A stretch of 64,000 bases of DNA, from positions 1 to 64,000 of the forward strand of contig CAMAZP010000016.1 of assembly GCA_945863605.1 (NCBI GenBank). The letters run 5' to 3'. Within the stretch, counting starts at the first letter, position 1; each line of letters starts with the position of its first letter. Shown in pieces: positions 8,441 to 24,967 of this stretch. Source of the stretch: Chitinophaga pinensis (lineage in GTDB: Bacteria; Bacteroidota; Bacteroidia; Flavobacteriales_D; Crocinitomicaceae). The position numbers were made by a program, and so were the translations under genes. Below the pieces are notes generated by a model. It was given only the letters and a program-made list of their open reading frames with translations. It searched no databases and was not told the origin of the DNA.

Positions 8441-10753
8441 TTATTTCTTAATCAAGAATTCTGTTCTTCTGTTTTCTTGATGTTCTAATTCTGAACAATT
8501 TACGTTGTCTGAACATTTGTTTAACAATTTGCTTTCACCATAACCATTAAAAGTTATTCTAGAAGGATCTTTGATTTTTTTCTGTATGTACTTAGCAGCT
8601 GAGTTAGCGCGTTTTTGTGATAATGATTTATTGTAATCATAAGAACCTCTTGAATCTGTATGTGAACCTAATTCTACTTTTATTGTTGGATTGTCATTCA
8701 ATACTTTTACAACTTTATCTAAAATTACTTTAGCGTCTTGACGTATGTTATGTTTGTCAAAATCATATAAAATTAAGAACGGTCCAATATCTATAGAATC
8801 TTTATCAATTGTTAACAAATAAGATAATTTAATAATTGAATCCATTCCCAGTTTCTGATTTAATTCAAATGTTTGGCTTAAATAACCATCAGCAGAAACA
8901 AAAACCTCATATTTAAGCTCATCAGAGAAGTTCTTCCCTTTTGTTATATCTGAAGTAAAATCACCCTTTTTTCCTGTGTTGCGTTCTTCTTGTGTTTTAG
9001 ACTTAATTCTAAAATCAACTTTTGCATTTTCAATTCCAACACCAGAATTTTTATCAGCAACTGTTCCTTCAACAGTATATTTGAAGAAGGGGAAAATCAT
9101 TTTCATCTCGTCATCTAACAATACTTTTTTGTTTATTTCTTGGTAAGCAAGATCACAATTTGTTGAGAATTTTTCTGAATATGGATTTTTCGCATTCGAA
9201 TTGTAATAATAAACTAATTCATATTCTTTACATTTTTCTAGTTTTGAAAAGAAACCACCATCTCTAACTCTAGGTGTTATCACAGTTGCACTTTGATCTT
9301 CACAATTTAAACATTTTACCGTAATGTATGAGTTTTCAGGTATCAATTTACCACCACTGTGAACAATTTGACCATTTAAAAAAGCAACATTTTTAACCTT
9401 AGAGTCAGCAATATTTACTTCATAAACATCTTTATCTCCTAATCCTCCTTTTCTGAAAGAAGTCAAATATGCTTTTTCTCCATCAGCAGTATGCGTATAA
9501 AAATAATCATCACCCACACTGTTTATTGGATAACCTAAATTTGTTGGTGCGGACCAAATACCGTTTTCATCACGTACTGACATAAAAACATCAAATAACC
9601 CCATACTTGTTGAATCTGAACTAGAAAAATAAAGTATTGAATTATCTAACCCCATAAACGGCGACTCTTCATCAGTCCAAGTATTAATATTTCCTCCGAT
9701 ATTTTTTGCTTCTGTCCAAGTACCTCCTACTCTTTCCATGAAATAAATGTCTCTTTTCCCAAATCCACCTTTTTTATCTGACACAAAGAATATCATATTT
9801 CCATCAGGAGAAACTGTGTAATGAGTTTCCCACCAATTGCCATCATTTACTTTAGAATTTTCAACTGACTTTGCATTTGAAAATTTATTATCAGTAAATT
9901 CCGAAAAATAAATATCTCCCATTCCACTTTTATCATTAAATAAATAAAATTTTCTTTCATCAATACTTACGCTTACAGATGATTCATTTGACTGTGGTCG
10001 ATTTAAACTTAATCTAGTTGGTGAATTCCATGTTTGATTTGTATTAATATTTGACTGATAAATATCATCTGTTAAATGATTTAACATCGGATCTCTGAAA
10101 TTTTCACTCGATTTGTCCTCCCAAGGTCTTCTTGATGTATAATATAAGGCATTACCATCAATTGAAATGTTGGATGAGTAATCCGCAAAGTTTGAATTAA
10201 TAGTTTCACCACAATTTTTTACCACATCAGCTGTAGGATTAGCTATCAACTTTTTGGCAACTTTACACTGTGAAATTCTTTTTTTAGCTTCAACAATTAA
10301 TTCTGATTGTTTTGTTGTATTTTCAAGAAATTTGTTATAATTTTCAATAGCTTTATCTAATTGTTCATCTAAATGATATGCTCTACCTAAGTGATAAAAT
10401 ACATCTGCAGGAACTGAACCCTCTCTGGTTGAATACATATCATAGTTTTTATCAATCGGAAAGCTGGAAGCTTTTGTTAAATGCTTAATTGCCTTTACAT
10501 GATCTTGACGCATTTCAAGTTCAATAAAACCTTTTCTGTAGTTATAATTTCCACTCTCGGGTTTAATTTCTAGTAAACGATTAGTTACTAAATCTGCATA
10601 ATGATAAAAATTCTCTTGAAGTAAACGAGAGGACTGGACCACTAAATCTTTTTCGTTTGAAGAAGTAATAAGATTTTTAACTTCTGACTCAGAATATTGA
10701 GCAAAAGCAGTGAATGTTGAAGTTATTAAAACTAAAAATAATAATTTTTGCAT
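8441..10753 (-). CDS. PorE-like OmpA-family protein (TPR, PD40 propeller, CRD, OmpA)
   Basis: 770-residue envelope protein. In order: signal peptide (cleavage near AFAQ), TPR region about 60-170 (AIKHLTKAS; KAIENYNKFLE), PD40/WD40-type beta-propeller about 185-450 (repeated YFSS/IYFME/GDIYFSE blades), carboxypeptidase-regulatory-like beta-sandwiches about 455-640, and an OmpA C-terminal domain about 650-770 (ELGSHTDSRGSYDYN, YGESKL). This is the domain order of PorE, which tethers the type IX secretion machinery to peptidoglycan. Flavobacteria carry several paralogues, so orthology to PorE itself is an inference. T9SS cargo elsewhere in the window fits. Confidence 0.8.
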   Translation of the reverse strand: MQKLLFLVLITSTFTAFAQYSESEVKNLITSSNEKDLVVQSSRLLQENFYHYADLVTNRLLEIKPESGNYNYRKGFIELEMRQDHVKAIKHLTKASSFPIDKNYDMYSTREGSVPADVFYHLGRAYHLDEQLDKAIENYNKFLENTTKQSELIVEAKKRISQCKVAKKLIANPTADVVKNCGETINSNFADYSSNISIDGNALYYTSRRPWEDKSSENFRDPMLNHLTDDIYQSNINTNQTWNSPTRLSLNRPQSNESSVSVSIDERKFYLFNDKSGMGDIYFSEFTDNKFSNAKSVENSKVNDGNWWETHYTVSPDGNMIFFVSDKKGGFGKRDIYFMERVGGTWTEAKNIGGNINTWTDEESPFMGLDNSILYFSSSDSTSMGLFDVFMSVRDENGIWSAPTNLGYPINSVGDDYFYTHTADGEKAYLTSFRKGGLGDKDVYEVNIADSKVKNVAFLNGQIVHSGGKLIPENSYITVKCLNCEDQSATVITPRVRDGGFFSKLEKCKEYELVYYYNSNAKNPYSEKFSTNCDLAYQEINKKVLLDDEMKMIFPFFKYTVEGTVADKNSGVGIENAKVDFRIKSKTQEERNTGKKGDFTSDITKGKNFSDELKYEVFVSADGYLSQTFELNQKLGMDSIIKLSYLLTIDKDSIDIGPFLILYDFDKHNIRQDAKVILDKVVKVLNDNPTIKVELGSHTDSRGSYDYNKSLSQKRANSAAKYIQKKIKDPSRITFNGYGESKLLNKCSDNVNCSELEHQENRRTEFLIKK

Positions 10754-12223: not shown

Positions 12224-14164
12224 TTATCTATCTAACTCATGCCAATTGTTTATTATTATCATTAAATCTAATCCAATTTTATAATTTTTAGCATAAAATA
12301 AATTACTATCGTGCTCTGCATCTAAATTGACTTTAAAAGGCCTTAAAATGCCTTGTTTTATTATTGGTAGTCTCTTTACATACATTTCTTTTGTGGTAAA
12401 ATAACCAACGAACGATTTTCTTCCTATCAGAATTTCAACTAGATTCTTAACGAATTTTATTCTTCTTTTAAAATAAAAAATTAACAAAGGAGTAACTAAA
12501 AGTAAACCAAAACTTAATGTAAAATCTAAAATTCGCTTTGATCTCAAATTTTCCGGTTTGCTGATAGCATTAAAATTCAATGCATACATATCACCAGAAG
12601 TATCAATTGAGTTACTGCCAATTAAATAGCTTGTTTCAGGTGGTGCAATTTTAAAGTCTATTTCAATTGATTTGATTTTCGTCATAACTTCAATTATTTC
12701 TTTGGAAGTTAAATCTTTTGAGCAAAAAATAAGTTCATTAATCTTATAAAAATCAACAATTGGATCAATCTGTTCTTTTAATCCAATTGATTTTGGGTAA
12801 GCATCATCAATTCCAATTCCGTAGACAACTTCAATTGAAGGATAGGTATTACTCAAAATGAACTCAACCCGCTTAAACTCTTCTTCGTTACCAATAATAG
12901 CAAAACGCTTTTTGGGTGCCTTAGGGAAACTAAATGAATTAGTTTTAAATAAATTCCAAAAAATCCGAGTTAAATAAAATCCAAAAATTACCCATGAAGT
13001 ACCTATTAGTATATATAACCTTGAAAATTGCCAATCCTTTGGAAGTAAAGCATAAATTGTCAAAATAAATATAGTTCCAAAAAATGTAGATTTTATAATT
13101 GTTTTTCTACTTACACCCTTGTCATAAACTCCAAAAATCAGTGCAGATATTAACCAAACTAAAGCGTAAAGGGGAATTTGTACTTTTAATACTAAATCAG
13201 GAAAATGAATATCGTGATTTGACCAATGATTCGTAATTAAAAGCAAACCCAAAAGGAAAATTATAAAATCAATAAGTGGAAGCGCTGCTTTTTTAATCAA
13301 ACGATTTCCAAGTGCAATTGAAGCTCTAAAGTAGATTGCAAAATTAATTGCAAATGAAAAAAGCTTGGCGTTGTTGTTAGAGAAATGTTTATTTGCAAAT
13401 AATATCATCGCTCTGTAAAACACAAAGACATAATTAACACTACTTTTTTTTGTGCTCTCTCCCTTATAATGAATTATCTTAGTTTGAGGAAAATAGTAGT
13501 TTTTGTATCCTCCTTGCTGGATTCTGTAGGATAAATCAATATCCTCTCCATACATAAAAAATTGCTCGTCAAGTAAACCAACTTTATCCAATGTTTCTGA
13601 ACGCATCAGCATAAATGCACCACTTAAAACGTCAATTTCATTTATCTCAAATTCACTTAAATATCCTAGGTGATATTTACCAAATATTCTCGATTTAGGA
13701 AAAACACGCGCTAAACCAAATATTTTATAAAATGAAACTCTTGGTGTTGGCAAACCACGTTTTGATTCTGGTAAAAACTTCCCTTTACCATCCACCATCC
13801 TCACTCCTAGCCCACCTGCATCAGGGTGTTCATCCATAAATGCAACGGTTTTAACAAAAGTATCCTCTTCAATTACTGTATCTGGATTCAATAATAAAAC
13901 ATACCGTGCATCGCTTAAATGAATTGCTTGATTGTTTGCTTTTGAAAATCCTACATTATCTTTATTTGCGATGACATTTACTGTAGGAAACTTCTCACGG
14001 ACCATTGCAACTGAACTATCAATGGAATTATTATCAACAACGAATACTTGTACTTTTAATTGTTTTGAAGCAGATTTAACAGCATTTAAACATTGTTCTA
14101 AAAAATATACTACATTGTAATTAACAATGACAACTGATAAATCAAATGAATACGTTTTATTCAT
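12224..14164 (-). CDS. Composite protein: GT2 glycosyltransferase + membrane/phosphoglycosyltransferase-like C terminus
   Basis: 646 residues. Residues 1 to about 235 are a family 2 glycosyltransferase of the rhamnosyltransferase type (VVIVNYNV, VFVVDNNSIDSS, NKDNVGFSKANN, LLNPDT, then a GEDIDLSYR acceptor motif). About 285-400 has several membrane helices. About 415-520 reads as a Rossmann-like nucleotide-sugar domain (KRFAIIGNEEEFKR) as in WbaP/WcaJ-type proteins. From about 540 the sequence starts like a bacterial sugar transferase (RSKRILDFTLSFGLLLVTPL, GRKSFVGY, IKQGILRPF). The part between membrane hairpin and C terminus is shorter than in active phosphoglycosyltransferases, so this half may be degenerate. 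The ATG overlaps the RidA stop by one base. Confidence 0.78.
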   Translation of the reverse strand: MNKTYSFDLSVVIVNYNVVYFLEQCLNAVKSASKQLKVQVFVVDNNSIDSSVAMVREKFPTVNVIANKDNVGFSKANNQAIHLSDARYVLLLNPDTVIEEDTFVKTVAFMDEHPDAGGLGVRMVDGKGKFLPESKRGLPTPRVSFYKIFGLARVFPKSRIFGKYHLGYLSEFEINEIDVLSGAFMLMRSETLDKVGLLDEQFFMYGEDIDLSYRIQQGGYKNYYFPQTKIIHYKGESTKKSSVNYVFVFYRAMILFANKHFSNNNAKLFSFAINFAIYFRASIALGNRLIKKAALPLIDFIIFLLGLLLITNHWSNHDIHFPDLVLKVQIPLYALVWLISALIFGVYDKGVSRKTIIKSTFFGTIFILTIYALLPKDWQFSRLYILIGTSWVIFGFYLTRIFWNLFKTNSFSFPKAPKKRFAIIGNEEEFKRVEFILSNTYPSIEVVYGIGIDDAYPKSIGLKEQIDPIVDFYKINELIFCSKDLTSKEIIEVMTKIKSIEIDFKIAPPETSYLIGSNSIDTSGDMYALNFNAISKPENLRSKRILDFTLSFGLLLVTPLLIFYFKRRIKFVKNLVEILIGRKSFVGYFTTKEMYVKRLPIIKQGILRPFKVNLDAEHDSNLFYAKNYKIGLDLMIIINNWHELDR

Positions 14165-15671: not shown

Positions 15672-18107
15672 ATGAAAAACGTTTTCCTACTTCTAACTTA
15701 TACTTTACTTTCATTTACCTTAATTTCTCAAAATAGTCTTGTTAAAGGGAAAGTAACAAACATCCTCAACAATCAGGCTATTCCTTTCGCTAAAATTATT
15801 GCAATTGATCAACAAAAAGGATCCATTTCAGATGAGACTGGAAATTTCGAAATTACCGGCTTAAAACCAGGTGTTTATTCATTTAAAGCAACAGCTTCAG
15901 GATTTAAAGAATTAGTTATAAACGAAATAACTGTGACTAATGCGCGTTCTATCGAATTGAATTTTGCTTTAGAAGAAATTGTTTTGGAACAAGAAGAAGT
16001 GGTTGTTAAAGCATCACCTTTTCAACGTAAATCAGAATCGCCAGTTTCTTTAAAAACTTTGAATGCTACCGAAATCGAACGTTTACCAGGCGCAGGCCGT
16101 GACGTAAGTAAAGTTATCGCAGCGTTACCTGGTGTTGCTTCACGTGCAACTTTTAGAAACGATATCATTATTCGCGGTGGTTCACCTGGAGAAAACAAAT
16201 TTTACCTTGATGGAATCGAAGTTCCGAACATTAATCACTTTGCGACCCAAGGAAGTAGCGGTGGTCCTGTTGGTCTTTTGAATGTAAATTTTATTCGTGA
16301 AGTTGATTTTTATTCTGGTGCCTTTCCAGCAAATCGTGCCAATGGTTTAAGTTCTGTTCTTTCTTTCAAGCAAAAAGACGGAAATCAAGATGCATTTATT
16401 ACGAATTTCGCTTTAGGATCAAGTGATGCCGCATTAACCTTCGATGGTCCGATTGGTAAAAAAGTTGACTTTATTTTCTCAGCAAGACGTTCTTATCTAC
16501 AATTTCTATTTGCAGCTTTACAATTGCCAATTCTACCAACTTATAATGACTTTCAATACAAAATCAACTATAAGTTAAACGATAAAAACAAAATTACGTT
16601 CATTGGTTTAGGTGCAATTGATGATTTCAGATTAAATGCAAAAGTGAACGAAAACGTTACTGATTCGGCAACAAGAGAAAGTAACAATTATATTTTGAAC
16701 AATTTACCTCTTCAAAAACAATGGAATTACACGGTTGGTATTAATTGGCTTCATTATTCAAAGAATTCATACCAAAATATTATCGTTAGTAGAAATATGT
16801 TGAATAATTCAGCAACTCGAACTTCTAATAAAATTCCTGCTCCAGACAATATAATTCTCGATTACTCTTCATTTGAGGCAGAAAATAAATTCCGTTTTGA
16901 ACACACTTACAATAAAAATGGATGGAGATTAAATGCTGGTGTTGGTTACGAATATGCGAAGTATTTCAATTCAACATTTAATAGAGTTACGATTCAGGGA
17001 GTTCCTGTTTTGATTGACTTCGAATCCACTTTAGGTTTACATAAAGTTGCACTATTCGGGCAGCTTAGTAAATCACTTCTGAAAGAAAAATTGAATTTAT
17101 CACTTGGTTTAAGAACAGATGTGAATAGTTATGCAAAAAGTATGATGAATCCATTGGATCAATTATCTCCTAGCTTTTCTGTTAACTACCGTTTCAATAG
17201 TCAATGGGCGCTTAATGGGAATATTGCTCGCTACCATCAGTTACCAGCTTACACTATTTTAGGTTATCGTGATGCAAACGGCGTTCTAAAAAACAAAGAA
17301 AATGATTTAAGATATATCAGTGCGGATCATTTTGTTTTAGGAACAGAATATTTAACCAAATTTGATTCTCGTTTTACTTTAGAAGGATTTTTCAAAAGCT
17401 ATAACAGATACCCTTTCTCACTTAAAGACTCTTTGAGTTTAGCTAACATTGGTTCAGATTTTGGCGTTGTTGGTAACGAGGAAGTAAAATCAATTTCTAC
17501 AGGGAGAACTTACGGAGTTGAATTTTTATACCAACAAAAAATGTACAAAGGATTCTATGCGATTCTAGCTTACACGTACGTTGTTTCGGAATTTAAAGAC
17601 AAAAACAATTCGTATGTTCCAACCTCTTGGGATAGCCGTAATATCGTTTCCTTAACTGGAGGTAAACGTTTCAAAAAAGGTTGGGAAGTTGGTTTCCGTT
17701 GGTTATTTTCTGGAGGTTCTCCTTATACGCCAATCGATGTTGCAACTTCAAGTTTGATTCAAAACTGGGATATCAACGGCCAAGGACTTTTGGATATCAA
17801 TCGATTGAATACTCAAAGTGAATCTAATTTCCATCAATTGAATTTACGTGTTGATAAGAAAATTTACTTGGATAAATTCAATATGAACTTCTATCTAGAT
17901 ATTCAAAATGCGTATGGCTACAAAGCGAAGTTGGCACCTATTCTTTTGGTTGAAACAGATGCAAATGACAATCCGATTGTTGACCCGAACGACCCAACTC
18001 GCTACAAAACGAAGTTTATCGAAAACACGAACGGAATTGTTCAACCGACTTTGGGGATAATTTTAGAGTTTGCAGTGAAGAGAAAACCGATTGTTGGGGA
18101 TAAATAA
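15672..18107 (+). CDS. TonB-dependent receptor with carboxypeptidase-like N-terminal domain
   Basis: 811-residue outer-membrane receptor. Signal peptide 1-19, a CarboxypepD_reg-like beta-sandwich about 22-110 (VKGKVTNILNNQAIPFAKI, GSISDETGNFEITGL), a plug domain about 125-235 (LPGAGRDVSKVIAALPG, IIIRGGSPGENKFYLDGIEV), then a beta-barrel to the C terminus. The substrate is not evident and no SusD-like lipoprotein follows, so this is not a standard SusCD glycan pair. Downstream lies the valS-tail remnant and the accessory segment. Confidence 0.9.
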   Translation: MKNVFLLLTYTLLSFTLISQNSLVKGKVTNILNNQAIPFAKIIAIDQQKGSISDETGNFEITGLKPGVYSFKATASGFKELVINEITVTNARSIELNFALEEIVLEQEEVVVKASPFQRKSESPVSLKTLNATEIERLPGAGRDVSKVIAALPGVASRATFRNDIIIRGGSPGENKFYLDGIEVPNINHFATQGSSGGPVGLLNVNFIREVDFYSGAFPANRANGLSSVLSFKQKDGNQDAFITNFALGSSDAALTFDGPIGKKVDFIFSARRSYLQFLFAALQLPILPTYNDFQYKINYKLNDKNKITFIGLGAIDDFRLNAKVNENVTDSATRESNNYILNNLPLQKQWNYTVGINWLHYSKNSYQNIIVSRNMLNNSATRTSNKIPAPDNIILDYSSFEAENKFRFEHTYNKNGWRLNAGVGYEYAKYFNSTFNRVTIQGVPVLIDFESTLGLHKVALFGQLSKSLLKEKLNLSLGLRTDVNSYAKSMMNPLDQLSPSFSVNYRFNSQWALNGNIARYHQLPAYTILGYRDANGVLKNKENDLRYISADHFVLGTEYLTKFDSRFTLEGFFKSYNRYPFSLKDSLSLANIGSDFGVVGNEEVKSISTGRTYGVEFLYQQKMYKGFYAILAYTYVVSEFKDKNNSYVPTSWDSRNIVSLTGGKRFKKGWEVGFRWLFSGGSPYTPIDVATSSLIQNWDINGQGLLDINRLNTQSESNFHQLNLRVDKKIYLDKFNMNFYLDIQNAYGYKAKLAPILLVETDANDNPIVDPNDPTRYKTKFIENTNGIVQPTLGIILEFAVKRKPIVGDK

Positions 18108-18140
18108 TACCAATCAATTATTGAAATAAATAGTTATTTC

Positions 18141-18182
18141 TCAATTTAGCGAAGCCATTTTCTCCTCCAATAAAGCGATTTT
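18141..18182 (-). pseudogene. Second copy of the valS 3' end (13 codons + stop)
   Basis: Read on the minus strand this 42-bp stretch encodes [13 protein letters not shown] and a stop, identical to the C terminus of the ValS encoded at 22340-24967. All six base differences from the real valS tail are silent (AAA/AAG, ATC/ATT, TTA/TTG, TCG/TCA, CTA/CTT, and TGA/TAA as stop). A 20-bp core is identical (18151-18170 versus 22350-22369). Homology stops abruptly at 18182/18183. It is the same orientation as valS, so the copies are direct repeats bounding about 4.2 kb. Confidence 0.85.
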
Positions 18183-18239
18183 TCTAAATTATACGCTCTA
18201 CTATGATAAGTCTGTTTCAAAAGTTGTTAATCGAGGCTT

Positions 18240-18295
18240 TTCAAAAATTTAATACAGGAGTTAACCCTTGTTAATGAGGATATTAAATTTTTGAA
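18240..18295. repeat. Perfect 15-bp inverted repeat with nested hairpin
   Basis: Arms 18240-18254 and 18281-18295 are perfect reverse complements (TTCAAAAATTTAATA). The 26-base spacer contains a second small inverted repeat, TTAAC/GTTAA (18261-18265 and 18270-18274). There is no GC-rich stem or flanking T-run typical of an intrinsic terminator. It may be a protein-binding site, an element end or a structured RNA. Confidence 0.7.
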
Positions 18296-18517
18296 GTAAC
18301 GATGAGAAACGGGTTTTGCAACGGTCTTATGATATATAGTTGAATTTTTTATCAAATCAAACTCAGGTTCAAAGGATTGTTTTTTCTATTTAGTTCAGTT
18401 TTTGTTTCAAACCACCATTTTTGGATAGGACAGAAAAAGATTAAAATAGTTGTAGAAAAATCAATGATTTTCTATATAAAATTTTCGAAGCTAATAGTTT
18501 GATTCAAACAGGGCGCG

Positions 18518-18535
18518 AATAATGTTCATTAATGT
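18518..18535 (-). promoter_or_regulatory. Operator-like motif, copy 1
   Basis: On the minus strand this reads ACATTAATGAACATTATT, 17 of 18 identical to the site at 20990-21007. The motif is two ACATTAAT-like half-sites 10 bp apart, one helical turn. It lies 25 bases upstream of the -7 element of the 18588 operon. Confidence 0.55.
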
Positions 18536-18560
18536 TTTTTTTTTGAATTGATTTGCCAAC

Positions 18561-18568
18561 TAAATTTG
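18561..18568 (+). promoter_or_regulatory. -7 promoter element (TAAATTTG) for the 18588 operon
   Basis: Exact TAnnTTTG, 19 bases before the ATG at 18588. The nearest TTTG upstream (18542-18545) is 15 bases away. Confidence 0.5.
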
Positions 18569-18587
18569 AAGAAAAAATAAAATATAA

Positions 18588-19223
18588 ATGGCAAAAAGCA
18601 ATTTTGGCAAAGCCTTAGGACGGGAATTAGGTAAAAATACGGGAAAACTTATTTCTAATAAATTGTTTGGGAATGGGCATGCAACTCCATATCGAGTTAC
18701 TGGAAGAGCGCAAGCAGCTCAAATTAGAGCAGATGGGATGAAGGCTCAGGCTGAGGCATTAAAAGCTCAAGCCAATGCTCAATTAGAGATTGAAGAAATT
18801 AGACTTAAGCAGGAAAATACATTAAGAGAAATTTCTACTATAGGAGAAATTGCTAATGTTGAATTTTCTGAAAATCCAAAAGAAATATCTAGCCAACTGA
18901 ATCAAATAATTAGTTTGTTAAGTGCTCAAAAATCAAGAGAGGTTTTAAAAGCAGGAATAGAGAAAATTGATTTTGGAATTTTAACACTAACAAAATATGA
19001 TTTAGCACAAGCCAATTATTTTGAAACGAAGCTAAAAAAATTAAAATTTAGATATAATTTTCCTTATTATTCATTAATTGGAGGAGTCGTTTTACTTGGT
19101 TTAGGCGCTCTTTTTATGAATTTACAGAAATCAGGAGGTTTATTTAATATCGGTATTGGTTTATTGCTTGTTGGTATGTACGCATCGTTATTTACATTAA
19201 TTAAACTCTTTAAAAAAGATTAA
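18588..19223 (+). CDS. Hypothetical protein: coiled coil plus two C-terminal TM helices
   Basis: 211 residues. The N terminus is Gly/Lys-rich (FGKALGRELGKNTGKLISNK), followed by an HATPYRVT segment. About 45-90 is an Ala/Gln/Glu-rich coiled coil (AEALKAQANAQLEIEEIRLK). About 95-155 is a helical region, and two membrane helices lie near 160-180 and 185-207. No known motif. The next gene starts 1 base after its stop, so the two proteins probably act together, perhaps at the inner membrane. It is the first gene of the valS-bounded segment. Confidence 0.7.
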   Translation: MAKSNFGKALGRELGKNTGKLISNKLFGNGHATPYRVTGRAQAAQIRADGMKAQAEALKAQANAQLEIEEIRLKQENTLREISTIGEIANVEFSENPKEISSQLNQIISLLSAQKSREVLKAGIEKIDFGILTLTKYDLAQANYFETKLKKLKFRYNFPYYSLIGGVVLLGLGALFMNLQKSGGLFNIGIGLLLVGMYASLFTLIKLFKKD

Positions 19224-19224
19224 T

Positions 19225-19647
19225 ATGGAGCTAATTTATAATAAATTCAAAGAAGAACTTGATACAGAAATGACTTTTGACGAATTTCAAATACTTGTTT
19301 TAATTTATCCTGTTTTTCTTGTAGCAATAGCAGATGGTGCGTTTGATAACGACGAGAAAGAATTTGTTAAAGAAATTTTATTGAACTTTTTGCATCCATT
19401 ATATAACGACGAAATCAATGATGAACAATATGAGAATTTGGTTGAAAATTATTTAACTGATTTGGCATTTTTAAATGAAAATAAAGCACGATATGAAGAC
19501 GATTTTTTAAGAGCGCTTTCATCTTTTGATTTAGAAATAAAAAATAGTATTTTGGAATTATTGACGGATGTTGCTAATGCATCTGAAGGATTAAGCGAAG
19601 AAGAATTTAAGATTATCGAATCAATAAAAGTGAATTACCTCAGCTAA
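19225..19647 (+). CDS. TerB-like acidic helical protein
   Basis: 140 residues, acidic and all-helical. Two related segments, VAIADGAFDNDEKEFVKEI and DVANASEGLSEEEFKIIESI, match the duplicated TerB/TerB-like pattern (hydrophobic, xADG, then acidic helix). TerB-like domains occur in tellurite-resistance and phage-defence or stress modules, but here the assignment is by pattern only. It is translationally coupled to the membrane coiled-coil gene. Its 3' end overlaps the convergent gene by 27 bases. Confidence 0.6.
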   Translation: MELIYNKFKEELDTEMTFDEFQILVLIYPVFLVAIADGAFDNDEKEFVKEILLNFLHPLYNDEINDEQYENLVENYLTDLAFLNENKARYEDDFLRALSSFDLEIKNSILELLTDVANASEGLSEEEFKIIESIKVNYLS

Positions 19648-19992
19648 AAATTTCTTCGAAAATAATTTATTTTTAATGGCTTGATAGATTATTTTTGAAA
19701 AAACAATTAACAAAGAAATTTTCAAAAAAAAAGTTAATCCAATGATTTTGGAATCTGGTTCATTCAAAGAAACAGTACTCAGTGATGCTCCTGATGTAAA
19801 ACCACCGTTTATTGTGTTTCCTTGTGAGTCGCTTTGTGAGATTACTACCAATTCACCAATCGTAAAACCAATTCCAATATTGTTTACAACTGAATGTTTA
19901 CCCGCACTATTAACAGTTTGTGGTGCAATTGATTGCCCATTCAAATGAACTGTCACCAATAATGAAATACCAAATAAAATTATTTTTTCCAT
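19621..19992 (-). CDS. Secreted-protein N-terminal module, apparently truncated T9SS cargo
   Basis: I choose the ATG at 19992 (123 residues) because it opens a clean signal peptide (MEKIILFGISLLVTVHLNGQ); a longer reading from 20046 puts 18 extra residues in front. The segment SIAPQTVNSAGKHSVVNN, GFTIGELVVISQSDSQGN, INGGFTSGASLSTVSLNEPD is the typical start of small Bacteroidota secreted proteins, which normally continue into a T9SS sorting domain with FPNP. Here, right after NEPD, there is a T-run and then a hydrophobic or basic tail without that domain. Decay or a frameshift at the T9 run (about 19725-19733) is likely. It overlaps the upstream gene by 13 bases. Confidence 0.5.
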   Translation of the reverse strand: MEKIILFGISLLVTVHLNGQSIAPQTVNSAGKHSVVNNIGIGFTIGELVVISQSDSQGNTINGGFTSGASLSTVSLNEPDSKIIGLTFFLKISLLIVFSKIIYQAIKNKLFSKKFLAEVIHFY

Positions 19993-20456
19993 ACCAAATA
20001 TATTATCCTTAAAACTCCAAAACTTATAAAAATTAATCCTCCCCAAAAAAAAGTTCGGATTGCAGCTTTTTTCCGGTCGAGCGATTCTTGTAACGACAAA
20101 TAAATTTTCTGATTCGTTTTTACTTCATAAACATTTACAGTTTCTTCGTCATTCGAAATTGCTTTAGGAACTTTCAACTCAATTTGACCCCCTTTTTTAA
20201 TGGTTTTTTCAAAGCCTTCTTTCTTGAAAATGAAGAGTAATTCTTCCTCGATCACAAAATCTTTTTTGGCTTCTGCAATTTTAATTGTGAATTTATCTCC
20301 TGACCATTTTGATCTAGAAAAAGCAAACGATTTAACTTTTCCCGAAACTGTTTTGAAATCATTTAATTCTAGGGATGGCGTCGTATAAGATTTGAATAAC
20401 AAAAACAGACCCAACGGTAATGCAAGAATTAGAAATCTAAATTTACTTTTCTTCAT
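19980..20456 (-). CDS. Hypothetical protein with N- and C-terminal TM helices
   Basis: 158 residues. A hydrophobic N-terminal segment (about 7-23) and a C-terminal one (about 136-155) flank a beta-rich, Lys/Glu-rich middle (SGKVKSFAFSRSKW, FTIKIAEAKKDFVIEEELLF, GGQIELKVPKA). This looks like a small periplasmic domain anchored at both ends. No family is recognised. It is 5 bases downstream of the 20462 gene and therefore in the same operon. Confidence 0.6.
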   Translation of the reverse strand: MKKSKFRFLILALPLGLFLLFKSYTTPSLELNDFKTVSGKVKSFAFSRSKWSGDKFTIKIAEAKKDFVIEEELLFIFKKEGFEKTIKKGGQIELKVPKAISNDEETVNVYEVKTNQKIYLSLQESLDRKKAAIRTFFWGGLIFISFGVLRIIYLVWKK

Positions 20457-20461
20457 TCAAA

Positions 20462-20941
20462 TTAAAATAAGCTGTTATTTTTAGTTTCTTCCGCTATTTT
20501 GATTCCTACAGCGCTTAAACGATCAATATTTCCTTCAGGTAATGAAGATTTGAAGTTTTCGGGAGCATCAACAATTTTTTGCTCATTGCGAGTGATAACA
20601 ACTATTTCATTCTCATCAAGAATTGCTTTAACCGAATCGAGTGAGACTTTATTTGTTTTAATTAAATCGAGAAGTTTTTCTTTAGTGATTTTAAGCGGAA
20701 CTAAATGTTCAAAATACAAATCATCTAATTGATTTTTTGACTTCCAAGCATTTTCTGAGTAGCGATAATGCAACGACATTTTTGAAATTCTGCGATACAC
20801 CTTGTCTCCGTTCAAATTGAATTGGTGATAATTCCGCAATATTTTATCAAATGCATTGCCACTATCAATTAATCTCAGATACAATTCACCATTCTTTAAA
20901 ATATAGTGCACTAAATCAGTAATTGCATCGTGATAATTCAT
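20462..20941 (-). CDS. Hypothetical cytoplasmic protein
   Basis: 159 residues from the preferred ATG at 20941. An in-frame ATG at 20959 would overlap one candidate -7 box, whereas the TAATTTTG box at 20972-20965 sits 23 bases before 20941. The protein has no signal or membrane helix. Distinct segments are YRYSENAWKSKNQLDDLYFE, HLVPLKITKEKLLDLIKTN, AILDENEIVVITRNEQKIVD and SSLPEGNIDRLSAVGIKIA. The EHLVPLK and IVVITRNE pattern recalls uncharacterised nuclease-like proteins, but I cannot name the family. It is divergent from the helix-turn-helix gene. Confidence 0.6.
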   Translation of the reverse strand: MNYHDAITDLVHYILKNGELYLRLIDSGNAFDKILRNYHQFNLNGDKVYRRISKMSLHYRYSENAWKSKNQLDDLYFEHLVPLKITKEKLLDLIKTNKVSLDSVKAILDENEIVVITRNEQKIVDAPENFKSSLPEGNIDRLSAVGIKIAEETKNNSLF

Positions 20942-20964
20942 TTTTGTAATTTTTCTCAAAACTA

Positions 20965-20972
20965 CAAAATTA
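20965..20972 (-). promoter_or_regulatory. -7 promoter element (TAATTTTG) for the 20462 operon
   Basis: Exact TAnnTTTG on the minus strand, 23 bases before the ATG at 20941. A second exact match (TAGTTTTG, 20964-20957) abuts it. The operator-like site at 20990-21007 occupies the expected -33 region. Confidence 0.5.
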
Positions 20973-20989
20973 TATCTATTTAAAAATGT

Positions 20990-21007
20990 ACATTAATGAA
21001 CATTAAT
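20990..21007 (+). promoter_or_regulatory. Operator-like motif, copy 2
   Basis: ACATTAATGAACATTAAT, two ACATTAAT half-sites separated by GA. It is in the divergent spacer between the 20462 operon and the helix-turn-helix gene, and matches the site at 18518-18535 in 17 of 18 positions in opposite orientation. Confidence 0.6.
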
Positions 21008-21037
21008 CTGTATTGATTTTCTTACGATTTTTGGAGT

Positions 21038-22237
21038 ATGCCCAGAACGAAGTTTAAAGTTAACCTTGAAAGTCTTGAAAAATTAAAGGCTCAATTGCTA
21101 AAGCGCACAGAGATAAATTTGTCGAGGCCAACAGACTGTCAACTTTTGACAGAGGTAATTTCAAATTATCAAGGTGAATTGATTAATCCAATTACGTTTA
21201 AACGAATTTTTGGGTTTGTAAAATATCCATTTAGTCCTTCCTTGCAGACCTTGAATATTTTGTCTAAGTTTTTAGGGTTTAAAGATTGGTATGATTTTGA
21301 GCAAGCTTGTTCTGACTTTTCATCAATTTCAACGAATGAATTGGCAATATATTTATCTTTTTTTGAATTTGACTCCATCAATCGAATAGAAGAACACGAC
21401 GGTGGAGTACAATCGTTTTCGAGAAAAATCGCACTTCGCTTTCGAGAAGATCCTGAAACCTTTAAACAAGTAATTCCTACACTCGCGAGTAATTCGTTTG
21501 CTCAAACGTTTTTCATTGAACATTTCCCGGATTATGATAATTTGGTTAGCTATTACTATCTTCTTTATGAGGCTTACCTCAAAAATAAAAAAACAACGGA
21601 AGCGCAACTTTTCGGAAACTCTATTTTGTTTTTAAAAGCACTTTGGACTTTAAATAAGAAGGAAGCCAACGTTTCCATTCAAAAAATGGATAGCTTTTCT
21701 TTACACAAAAATATTCATCCATATATCATCGGCAGGATTTACGCTTGTAAACTAGTTCACAATTACAGTTTCGGAAATCAAAAACTTATTCCAGAATTAA
21801 TAAAAGAATTCAATGACAAAACAGCCATTCTTCCAATCGATGGAAATCACTTCCGAGATTTTCCGGCGGCTCATTATATCTTTGCCGAAGCATTATTTTT
21901 GACAAAACAATATCAAAGTTGCATTTCGGCTGTTGAAGAAGCATTATCAAAATTTCCAATTCGAACAGAATTCATTAGAAAAGGCTATTATCGGCAAATG
22001 CAAATCTTTTGGTATCTGTCAAAATGTAAATTGGGCGAAAGTCAACTAGAGTATGACTTTTTATTAAAAATTAATCCTGAGAATTATTATTTTATTTCAA
22101 AGAGACACTTTTCTATTTACTTCTATTGGGCAAGATTTCTAAATAATCAGAATATTAAATATTTGAATAAGGCAAAGAAATTAGCCATTTTGAATAAGAA
22201 TCAATTTCTCACTAATTTATTAGATTCAGAATTGTAA
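21038..22237 (+). CDS. Helix-turn-helix-like N-terminal domain with TPR-like helical C terminus (candidate regulator)
   Basis: 399 residues. Residues 30-95 follow a pattern I associate with Bacteroidota DNA-binding-like domains: a helix, then NPITFKRIFGFVKYPFSPSL, then TLNILSKFLGFKDWYDFEQ. It resembles an XRE-type helix-turn-helix with a following FKDW helix. Residues from about 125 to 399 are a run of amphipathic helices resembling TPR or SEL1 solenoids (AAHYIFAEALFLTKQYQSCI, AVEEALSKFP). There is no signal peptide. A GGAG sequence sits just before the ATG. The operator-like site upstream suggests that it, or another factor, controls the segment. DNA binding is inferred. Confidence 0.6.
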   Translation: MPRTKFKVNLESLEKLKAQLLKRTEINLSRPTDCQLLTEVISNYQGELINPITFKRIFGFVKYPFSPSLQTLNILSKFLGFKDWYDFEQACSDFSSISTNELAIYLSFFEFDSINRIEEHDGGVQSFSRKIALRFREDPETFKQVIPTLASNSFAQTFFIEHFPDYDNLVSYYYLLYEAYLKNKKTTEAQLFGNSILFLKALWTLNKKEANVSIQKMDSFSLHKNIHPYIIGRIYACKLVHNYSFGNQKLIPELIKEFNDKTAILPIDGNHFRDFPAAHYIFAEALFLTKQYQSCISAVEEALSKFPIRTEFIRKGYYRQMQIFWYLSKCKLGESQLEYDFLLKINPENYYFISKRHFSIYFYWARFLNNQNIKYLNKAKKLAILNKNQFLTNLLDSEL

Positions 22238-22339
22238 AAAAAGATTCAATTGGAAGTTACTTCTTAAAGTTTATTCAAGTAAATAAAATACAACCTAAAT
22301 ATTACCACAACCCAAATTTAGAAATGAAATTCTACATTC

Positions 22340-24967
22340 TTAATTAAGTGAAGCCATTTTCTCCTCCAACAAAGCAATCTTAGCCAAAGCATCCGCTTCT
22401 TTCTTGCGTTCGTTTGTAATAACAGCTTCTGGTGCGCCTGCTACAAATCGTTCGTTGCTTAATTTCGATTGAACACTTTTCAAGAATCCTTTTGTATAAG
22501 TCAATTCTTCAGAGATTTTTGCTTTTTCTGCTTCCACATCAATCGTATCTCCAAAAGGAATAAAGTACTCATTTCCAGCAACAATGAACGAGTTTGCATT
22601 GGCAACTTTGTCTTGAACGTATTCCAAAACGGATAAATTACCCATTTTCACATTAATCGAATCAAAACCTGTTTCAATCGTTTGCGTTTTGCGAATGAAT
22701 AATTCCAATTTCACTTTCGTTGCAATGTTGTTGCTTTTGCGAATGTTACGGATGTTTGTAATCACTTCCGAAGCTAAATCAAATTGTTTTAAATTTTGAG
22801 CATCAAATGATTTTACAGTTGGCCAAGTAGCGATAATAATGTCGTCACCTTCTGCTCTTTCGCGCAATGCATGCCACAATTCTTCTGCAACAAAAGGCGT
22901 AAACGGATGCAACACTTTCAATAAATTCTCAAAGAAAGATTTCGTTGCTTCCAACGTTTTTGCGTCAATTGGTTGCTCATATCCTGGTTTTACCATTTCT
23001 AAATACCACGAACAGAAATCGTCCCAAACCAATTTATAAATCGCCATTAACGCCTCAGAAATTCTGAATTTATCAAACAAGTCATTGATTTCAACCACTA
23101 CTTTTTGGAAACGATTTTCGAACCATTCAATCGCCACAACTGATGATTTTGGTTGCTCGATGTCGCGTACTTCCCAAGAGGAAACCAATCGGAACGCATT
23201 CCAGATTTTATTCGTAAAGTTACGTCCTTGCTCGCATTGAGAACTGTCAAAAGGCAAGTCATTTCCAGCAGGAGAAGAAATCAAAATTCCAACACGAACG
23301 CCATCTGCACCATATTTTTCAATCAATTCAATCGGATCTGGAGAATTCCCCAACGATTTAGACATTTTACGTCCTAACTTATCGCGTACAATTCCTGTAT
23401 AATATACGTTTTTGAACGGAATATCACCCAAGTATTCATAACCTGCAATGACCATTCTTGCTACCCAGAAAAACATAATTTCAGGCGCTGTCACTAAATC
23501 ATTTGTAGGATAATAGTAGTTGATTTCTTCGTTTCCAGGTCGTGTCAATCCGTTGAAAACCGAAATCGGCCACAACCAACTTGAGAACCACGTATCCAAA
23601 ACGTCTTCGTCTTGACGTAAATCTGCCAGTTCAATTGTTTTTCCTGCGCGTTCAATCGCTAAAACCAACGCTTCTTCTGCTGTTTTCGCAACAACGTAAT
23701 CGTTTGTTCCGTTTCCGAAATACCAAGCTGGAATGCGATGCCCCCACCACAATTGACGTGAAATACACCAATCTTTTACATTTTCCATCCAGTGACGATA
23801 TGTATTCTTGAACTTGTCTGGATGAAATTGAATGTTTCCATTCATAACATTATCCAAAGCCGGTTGCGCCAATTCTTTCATCGACACAAACCATTGCAAG
23901 GATAATTTTGGTTCAATTACCGCATTCGTTCTTTCTGAAAAACCAACTTTATTGATATGATCCTCGGTTTTCACCAAATAACCTTTTTCGTCTAATTCTT
24001 TTTCAATCAATTTACGTACCTCAAAACGATCTTTTCCTTCGTAATGCAAGCCATTTTTATTCAAAGTTCCGTTCTCATTGAAAACGTCGATTGTTTCTAA
24101 ATTGAATTTAATTCCCAATTCATAATCGTTGATATCGTGAGCTGGAGTTACTTTCAAACATCCTGTTCCAAATTCCATATCAACGTATTCATCTGCAATG
24201 ATTTGAATCTCGCGATTGATTAACGGAACCAAGGCTTTTTTACCGTGTAAATGTTTGTAGCGTGCATCGTTAGGATTCACACAGATCGCAGTATCACCCA
24301 AAATTGTTTCAGGACGCGTCGTTGCAATCGTCAACCATTCATCATCCGAACCAGCAACTTTATAACGTATATAAAACAAGCGAGAATTCACTTCTTTATA
24401 TAAAACTTCTTCATCTGAAACGGCAGTCAAAGCTTCCGGATCCCAGTTTACCATTCGAACACCACGGTAGATTTTTCCTTTTTTGAATAAGTCCACAAAC
24501 ACATCCAAAACTGATTCTGAATATTCAGCATCCATCGTGAAATGCGTGCGTTCCCAATCACAAGAAGCACCTAATTTTTTCAATTGTTCTAAGATGATTC
24601 CGCCGTGTTTGTCTTTCCATTCGAAAGCGTGTTTTAAAAACTCATCGCGTGTCAAATCTGTTTTTTTGATACCTTCCGCTTTCAATTTCTGAACAACTTT
24701 TGCCTCTGTAGCAATCGATGCGTGATCCGTTCCAGGAACCCAACAAGCGTTTTTACCCAACATTCTCGCACGACGAACCAAAACGTCTTGAATCGTATTA
24801 TTCAACATGTGTCCCATGTGTAAGACTCCTGTCACATTTGGTGGAGGAATGACGATTGTGTAAGCTTCTCTGCTGTCAGGTGTTGAATGAAAATAATTCT
24901 TTTCCATCCAGTATTTATACCATTTTTGTTCCGCTGCTCCAGGCTCGTACGTCTTTGGGATTTCCAT
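22340..24967 (-). CDS. valS: Valyl-tRNA synthetase
   Basis: 875-residue class I aminoacyl-tRNA synthetase that charges tRNA-Val. The HIGH signature is HMGH (residues 50-53) after PPPNVTGVL, and [12 protein letters not shown] lies near 533. The editing domain ([19 protein letters not shown]) and C-terminal coiled-coil arm ([20 protein letters not shown]) are present, so the gene is full length. Its last 13 codons are duplicated 4.2 kb away at 18141-18182. Confidence 0.97.

Follow-up and report, generated by a model that had tools for sequence, protein, structure and literature searches.

The window analysed in this study is a 64,000-nt stretch of contig 16 of genome G000 (3.09 Mb, a draft of 63 contigs), and its subject is a segment beside valS, the valyl-tRNA synthetase gene, that is bounded by a second copy of the 3' end of this gene. 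Position numbers refer to the window, L-numbers to individual fetched loci, and G-numbers to genomes; the 3' end of a gene is called its tail. On the minus strand, valS (22340..24967; Pfam PF00133, PF08264, and PF10458) forms an open reading frame (ORF) of 875 amino acids (aa) with 98% aa identity to a fragment from G033. Its resident tail occupies 22340..22381 (minus strand), and a displaced tail, comprising the last 13 codons and the stop, is found at 18141..18182 on the same strand. The displaced copy, the reverse complement of 18141-18182, reads AAAATCGCTTTATTGGAGGAGAAAATGGCTTCGCTAAATTGA, and the resident one, the reverse complement of 22340-22381, reads AAGATTGCTTTGTTGGAGGAGAAAATGGCTTCACTTAATTAA. 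The two are identical at 36 of 42 positions and give the same 13-residue peptide; all six differences, including the TAA/TGA stop, are silent, and the longest run without a difference is 20 bases. A preliminary description of this DNA had reported the recurrence in the same orientation, the six silent differences, and a 20-bp identical core, all of which the alignment confirms; its view that the tail derives from a functional valS fits as well, since every change is silent. A 29-base valS-tail pattern (two degenerate positions, up to three mismatches) matched the window only at the two tails and gave no match in 100 dinucleotide shuffles, which refutes a chance origin of the copy. Upstream of the displaced copy, the valS frame reaches a stop three codons on. 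Among the valS ends compared, the C-terminal peptide is shared with G033 alone; therefore, the tail came either from a close relative or from a former state of the gene.

Six ORFs lie between the tails. The first, orfA (18588..19223, plus strand, 211 aa), has a conserved N-terminal motif, GRELGKNTGK, and, by eye, C-terminal hydrophobic segments; it has no family match in Pfam, NCBIfam, PADLOC, or PHROGs, and its matches listed fall into 20 protein clusters, the first of which is probably its own. A gene for a TerB-like protein follows (19225..19647, plus strand, 140 aa; PF05099, E 3e-6). The minus strand carries orfC (19621..19992), secreted or membrane-like by eye, orfD (19980..20456, 158 aa), and orfE (20462..20941, 159 aa), and the last ORF is orfF (21038..22237, plus strand, 399 aa). 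OrfE belongs to a conserved family with an EHLxP motif, which we take to be reminiscent of HNH nucleases; 44 homologues are among the matches listed, and its structure model is confident (pLDDT 94.5) and has no PDB match at E<=0.001. TerB has the sole Pfam hit among the six ORFs, orfC and orfD included, none of the six proteins matches NCBIfam or the known defence models of PADLOC, and PHROGs gave weak hits only, for TerB and orfF. The 4.2-kb segment between the tails holds the ORFs as reported; the conserved gene set, on the other hand, does not run from tail to tail. It spans about 3.7 kb, from about 18518 to 22237, and the spacer at 18183-18517 is separate from it. No RNA family was found at the gathering threshold in 17900-22600.

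The OrfF model is all-helical, with an N-terminal part that may be a helix-turn-helix (HTH) and a superhelix resembling tetratricopeptide repeats (TPR), and OrfF is likely the regulator of the set. Upstream of orfF lies an operator-like palindrome, ATTAATGAACATTAAT (20990..21007, plus strand), and such a palindrome precedes orfF in all 11 loci, with 0-3 mismatches and its centre 37-52 bp before the ATG. An operator-like site with one mismatch to ACATTAATGNACATTAAT also stands before orfA (18518..18535, minus strand), as it does in both full modules known from the genus, those of G000 and G271 (counterpart at L212:5419-5436). The palindrome kept in 11 of 11 loci suggests that OrfF is an HTH-TPR autoregulator. 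In the arrangement of its model, N-terminal helices with a putative HTH followed by a TPR-like superhelix, OrfF resembles the RRNPP regulators (AimR, Rap, PlcR), from which it differs in having no sequence family match. Foldseek returned no match for the model at E<=0.001, and the weak fold match is driven by the TPR part, the N-terminal part being barely covered by VIA-align. The module is probably a regulated accessory cassette, perhaps of defence or stress, that OrfF would run through the palindromic sites. The palindrome common to the orfF loci thus offers a directly testable candidate regulator-operator pair.

Full-length orfF is present in two of 86 genomes of the genus, many of which are incomplete drafts: G000 and G271 (E about 1e-180), with partial matches at about 1e-28 in two others. 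An orfA profile matches 21 of 399 genomes of the order, again with G000 and G271 at about 1e-98 and the next at 6e-32. This distribution bears out the accessory character claimed for the segment. Carriage by a phage or plasmid was examined as well and rejected: tblastn with orfF gave no match at 1e-5 in 72,556 plasmid and 50,697 phage records, and IMG/VR scans based on alignments of orfA and of orfF brought up no relative.

In both genomes with full-length orfF, the module lies beside a displaced tail of a core gene. The second module is found in L153 (VEQH01000051.1, from the Flavobacteriales metagenome-assembled genome ZLKRG09), which is identical to the start of G271:C8. It has the order and orientation of the window and lies directly downstream of aspS, a gene named by recognition together with sequence matches. 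Identities to the window are 86% for orfA, 76% for TerB, 36% for orfD, 72% for orfE (49% in L151), and 58% for orfF; orfC was seen in the window copy only, and BLASTP found no counterpart of it in L151-L160. The DNA match between the window and L212, likewise from G271, covers 18520-19737 and 19999-22220, running from the operator-like site ahead of orfA as far as the orfF end. This recurrence in a second genome supports the earlier view of an accessory insertion.

The aspS locus contains more than one displaced tail. In L212, copies of the aspS tail occur at 10187-10228 and at 12678-12771 (94 nt, 89%); these two agree at every base over 42 nt and differ from the resident aspS tail, and the copy designated t2 carries a 21-bp identical core. 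Silent changes make up 5 of 7 in aspS t2 and 8 of 11 in aspS t3. Right behind orfF, a 58-nt hairpin that follows aspS (terminator-like by eye; 91%) recurs with a degraded aspS tail, which the end of orfF meets at AATTGAA. To the left of the module, aspS, the hairpin, and a 3' fragment of an ATPase gene are arranged as in G004; to the right is an intact copy of the ATPase gene, a homologue of the candidate defence PDC-S01. In two genomes, a 3' fragment of such an AAA_14/DUF4143 (PDC-S01-like) ATPase stands directly behind the aspS hairpin (L212:5149-5316 and L220:2723-2896). Overall, L212 reads as a G004-like donor segment with its own aspS end that entered a locus already having cassettes behind aspS.

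How common such tail duplications are was estimated from two samples. The first comprised 85 sequences (1.27 Mb, 922 ORFs), was biased toward loci of interest, and was read at a threshold of 34/42; the second comprised 40 stretches of G000 and G271 (669 kb, 498 ORFs) picked by contig number, mostly the first 20 kb or whole short contigs, with one G000 stretch at 40-60 kb, and was read at 33/42. From the first sample, 12 of 16 tail rows were dropped as tandem paralogues (L217, L058) or collagen-like (L068); the four kept were valS, aspS twice, and the ATPase fragment of L212. As controls, gene heads gave no hit, and all 33 gene-middle hits were within two collagen-like genes. From the second sample, the rows dropped numbered 2 of 5 for tails, 2 of 3 for heads, and 6 of 7 for middles (tandem paralogues of L245 and, among the middle rows, collagen-like L256). 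Three further tail duplications remained among the 498 ORFs, in polA, hflX, and a restriction-modification (RM)-like gene, each with other genes between the copies. The polA tail (122 nt, 97% identical, all four changes silent) is displaced by a cassette of a GHKL ATPase and ParD/ParE (L278:11555-14349). Between the hflX tails are zeta-toxin, ORF6N, DUF5122, and HTH genes and one unknown gene; the displaced piece also covers the beginning of the adjacent zeta-toxin gene, and another piece lies nearby downstream. The cassettes at hflX (L252:3402-7299) and at aspS (L212:10844-12670) have in common a gene for a secreted protein with DUF5122 and an HTH gene, right before the displaced tail. The third gene (L241:1-3493), presumably an RM-like methylase gene as recognised by sequence, has a tail that recurs behind one nuclease-like gene. 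In L256 (12508-12837), a gene head is repeated 6.9 kb away (33/42), possibly as a 5' counterpart of tail displacement or by chance. No recombinase family was found among the scanned proteins, namely the six window proteins and those of the aspS, polA, and hflX cassettes, the RM-like locus L241 lying outside the scan. The first impression that no integrase is visible in the segment is supported.

The neighbourhood of valS was compared in 38 flanks from 37 relatives, with 0 (L082) to about 15 kb of downstream DNA. In these flanks tblastn placed neither the TonB receptor nor any gene of the segment near valS; the empty site that had been predicted, with the TonB receptor adjoining valS, was thus not found. 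Many of the flanks listed have what we take to be an OmpA-like gene 3' of valS and gyrB further on. In 14 of the 17 loci fetched, the TonB receptor is part of a GT-Rid-GATase-TonB block away from valS, with exo and/or FAH on its far side in 12 of the 14 and a contig end in the other two. In the window, FAH and exo adjoin valS, and an FAH adjoining valS was not seen in the relatives read. In G033, FAH, exo, LpxD, and GAF are contiguous, and valS lies on different contigs, flanked on either side by other genes. Gene order is heavily shuffled. Of the earlier proposal of an island inserted at valS, the accessory content, the duplicated tail, and the lack of an integrase stand; an ancestral valS-TonB junction is unsupported. 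The locus is better read as a member of a series of recurring tail displacements than as an island at such a junction.

Repeats of other kinds are present at these loci. The spacer contains a dispersed hairpin element (18205..18329, plus strand) with three further matches in G000, one of just 52 nt, and one each in G029 and G033. It may be called MITE-like (after miniature inverted-repeat transposable elements), but without defined ends or target duplications; as single-stranded DNA, 18141-18360 folds better than 199 of 200 shuffles. In G033, a different dispersed repeat of roughly 300 bp (L057:1458-1874) separates valS from a PhoD-like gene, and G000 contains this repeat at 21 places (E 2e-39 or lower).

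The loci present duplicated tails, differences that are silent where the tails are young, a cassette shared between genomes, several tails at one gene, and scanned proteins free of recombinases. The mechanism that we favour, with moderate confidence, is homologous recombination on one side and an illegitimate joint on the other, with the native tail pushed downstream. DNA from a related strain would bring in the 3' end of a core gene (valS in the present case) with an accessory cassette behind it. On the gene side, homology would let the donor recombine with its resident counterpart; the other side would be joined, without long homology, inside that resident gene's own tail. The donor end would keep the core gene whole, and the native last codons would remain beyond the cassette. 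Repeated at one gene, the process would give rise to an array, with every older tail shifted further out, as at aspS in G271. Such a mechanism accounts for an intact core gene of which only the 3' end is left behind, for silent differences at young tails, and for several tails per gene. The route of uptake and a crossover on one side only are inferred, as is the direction, in which the resident tail would come from the donor and the distal one would be native. More broadly, and tentatively, it is proposed that, within this Bacteroidota genus, housekeeping genes (valS, aspS, polA, hflX) offer their 3' ends as recurrent entry points at which integrase-free accessory cassettes build up, the donor end replacing the resident one and the native tail remaining as a dated scar, and that one such cassette is an undescribed five-gene module with an HTH-TPR autoregulator and its own palindromic operators.

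Several observations weigh against this proposal. No empty site was found at valS (38 flanks), aspS (29 relatives), or polA (29 relatives, up to 1.5 kb behind the gene, with DUF2975 as the sole usable neighbour query), so that the native neighbour was never seen and the direction of displacement is unproved; the DUF255 gene beyond the last aspS tail did not adjoin aspS in 29 relatives, 12 of which were read beyond 1.5 kb. None of the five changes at hflX is silent. With paralogues and collagen-like repeats excluded, the second sample also contained one head and one middle repeat (33/42 and 35/42), and hence the excess of three tails is numerically small. Finally, the 4-fold divergence of valS from G033 (0.13-0.22) does not clearly exceed the range of other genes (GAF 0.24, FAH 0.48). 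Although the differences increase toward the 3' end of valS, the counts are small, and since the divergence is not clearly out of range, import of the valS end from a donor is not claimed.

The main rival to one-sided recombination is insertion with long target duplication, in which the cassette would copy 40-120 bp of the gene end and the tails would start identical and then diverge. Nobusato et al. (2000) reportedly described such duplication at Helicobacter pylori RM genes. It would produce the same geometry, with direct repeats of 42 nt at valS, 94 nt at aspS, and 122 nt at polA, and it is compatible with a cargo that has ParD/ParE, a zeta toxin, and a candidate defence ATPase, with polA copies still 97% identical, and with hflX copies that differ by non-silent changes only. 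It is nevertheless considered unlikely because copies that began identical and drifted freely would seldom yield the silent excess seen at valS, polA, and aspS t3 (P 0.0013, 0.0089, and 0.011 under a simple model), because the two displaced aspS tails coincide with each other over 42 nt but not with the resident, and because the arrangement of aspS, hairpin, and ATPase fragment is common to another genome.

Two further explanations are less likely than long target duplication. A site-specific integrase, since lost or acting from elsewhere, may have inserted the cassettes at gene 3' ends, the tails being its attachment sites; the targeting of gene ends, the direct repeats, and the growing arrays are in keeping with integrative elements, the target 3' end is duplicated at both ends at valS and aspS, and there are the identical cores of 20 bp (valS) and 21 bp (aspS t2). 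The scanned proteins include no recombinase family, however, five different target genes would require several integrases, and tail length varies from 42 to 122 nt, which makes this origin doubtful. Likewise improbable is an origin of the distal tail as what is left of a second full valS copy, whether a duplication or an acquired xenologue, that was deleted. Silent-only changes would suit a formerly functional second gene, and the genus rearranges strongly; yet a 3'-only remnant is found also at aspS, polA, hflX, and the RM-like gene, and no larger distal remnant is among the matches listed for valS, aspS, and polA. Chance or an artefact of assembly, which a 63-contig draft might invite, is very improbable, given the empty result in the shuffles and another assembly with the same architecture and the same module.

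No mobility machinery is visible for many accessory genes. Integrase-free insertions whose two ends are marked by a scar open to scripted searches could be counted and ordered. Such a scar would also permit a test of whether the ends of essential genes are preferred since only gene-restoring insertions survive, and it would help to find defence-like cassettes without recombinases.

Among the papers listed for islands and integrases, none names the end of valS, and nothing closer than the following turned up. Integrase-type genomic islands at tDNA or gene 3' ends, as treated in the part of the Islander report consulted (PMC4383910), resemble the present loci in that a regenerated gene end and a displaced fragment mark the two ends; here, in contrast, no integrase was found, various protein genes are targeted, and the tails have diverged. 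Insertion with long target duplication of H. pylori RM genes is cited in the portions consulted of two papers (PMC3154945, PMC1643837), and it likewise leaves an inserted gene between long direct repeats; a simple duplication should start identical, whereas here the young differences are silent and the tails form a series. The general idea of one-sided homology with an illegitimate joint is described in the sections consulted of another report (PMC2884548). The closest published model encountered is that for toxin genes in PMC5361080, which, as far as the excerpt consulted goes, proposes homology-facilitated illegitimate recombination for effector-immunity arrays of the Vibrio cholerae type VI secretion system (T6SS) and mentions a shifted effector 3' end. 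Under the mechanism favoured here, the T6SS arrays and Rhs loci would share with the present loci one homologous anchor, an illegitimate other end, displaced old 3' ends, and arrays formed by repetition. In those systems, what is displaced is the variable toxin gene, and the immunity genes are retained; here, a housekeeping gene serves as the anchor and remains intact, leaving only its last 42-122 nt behind.

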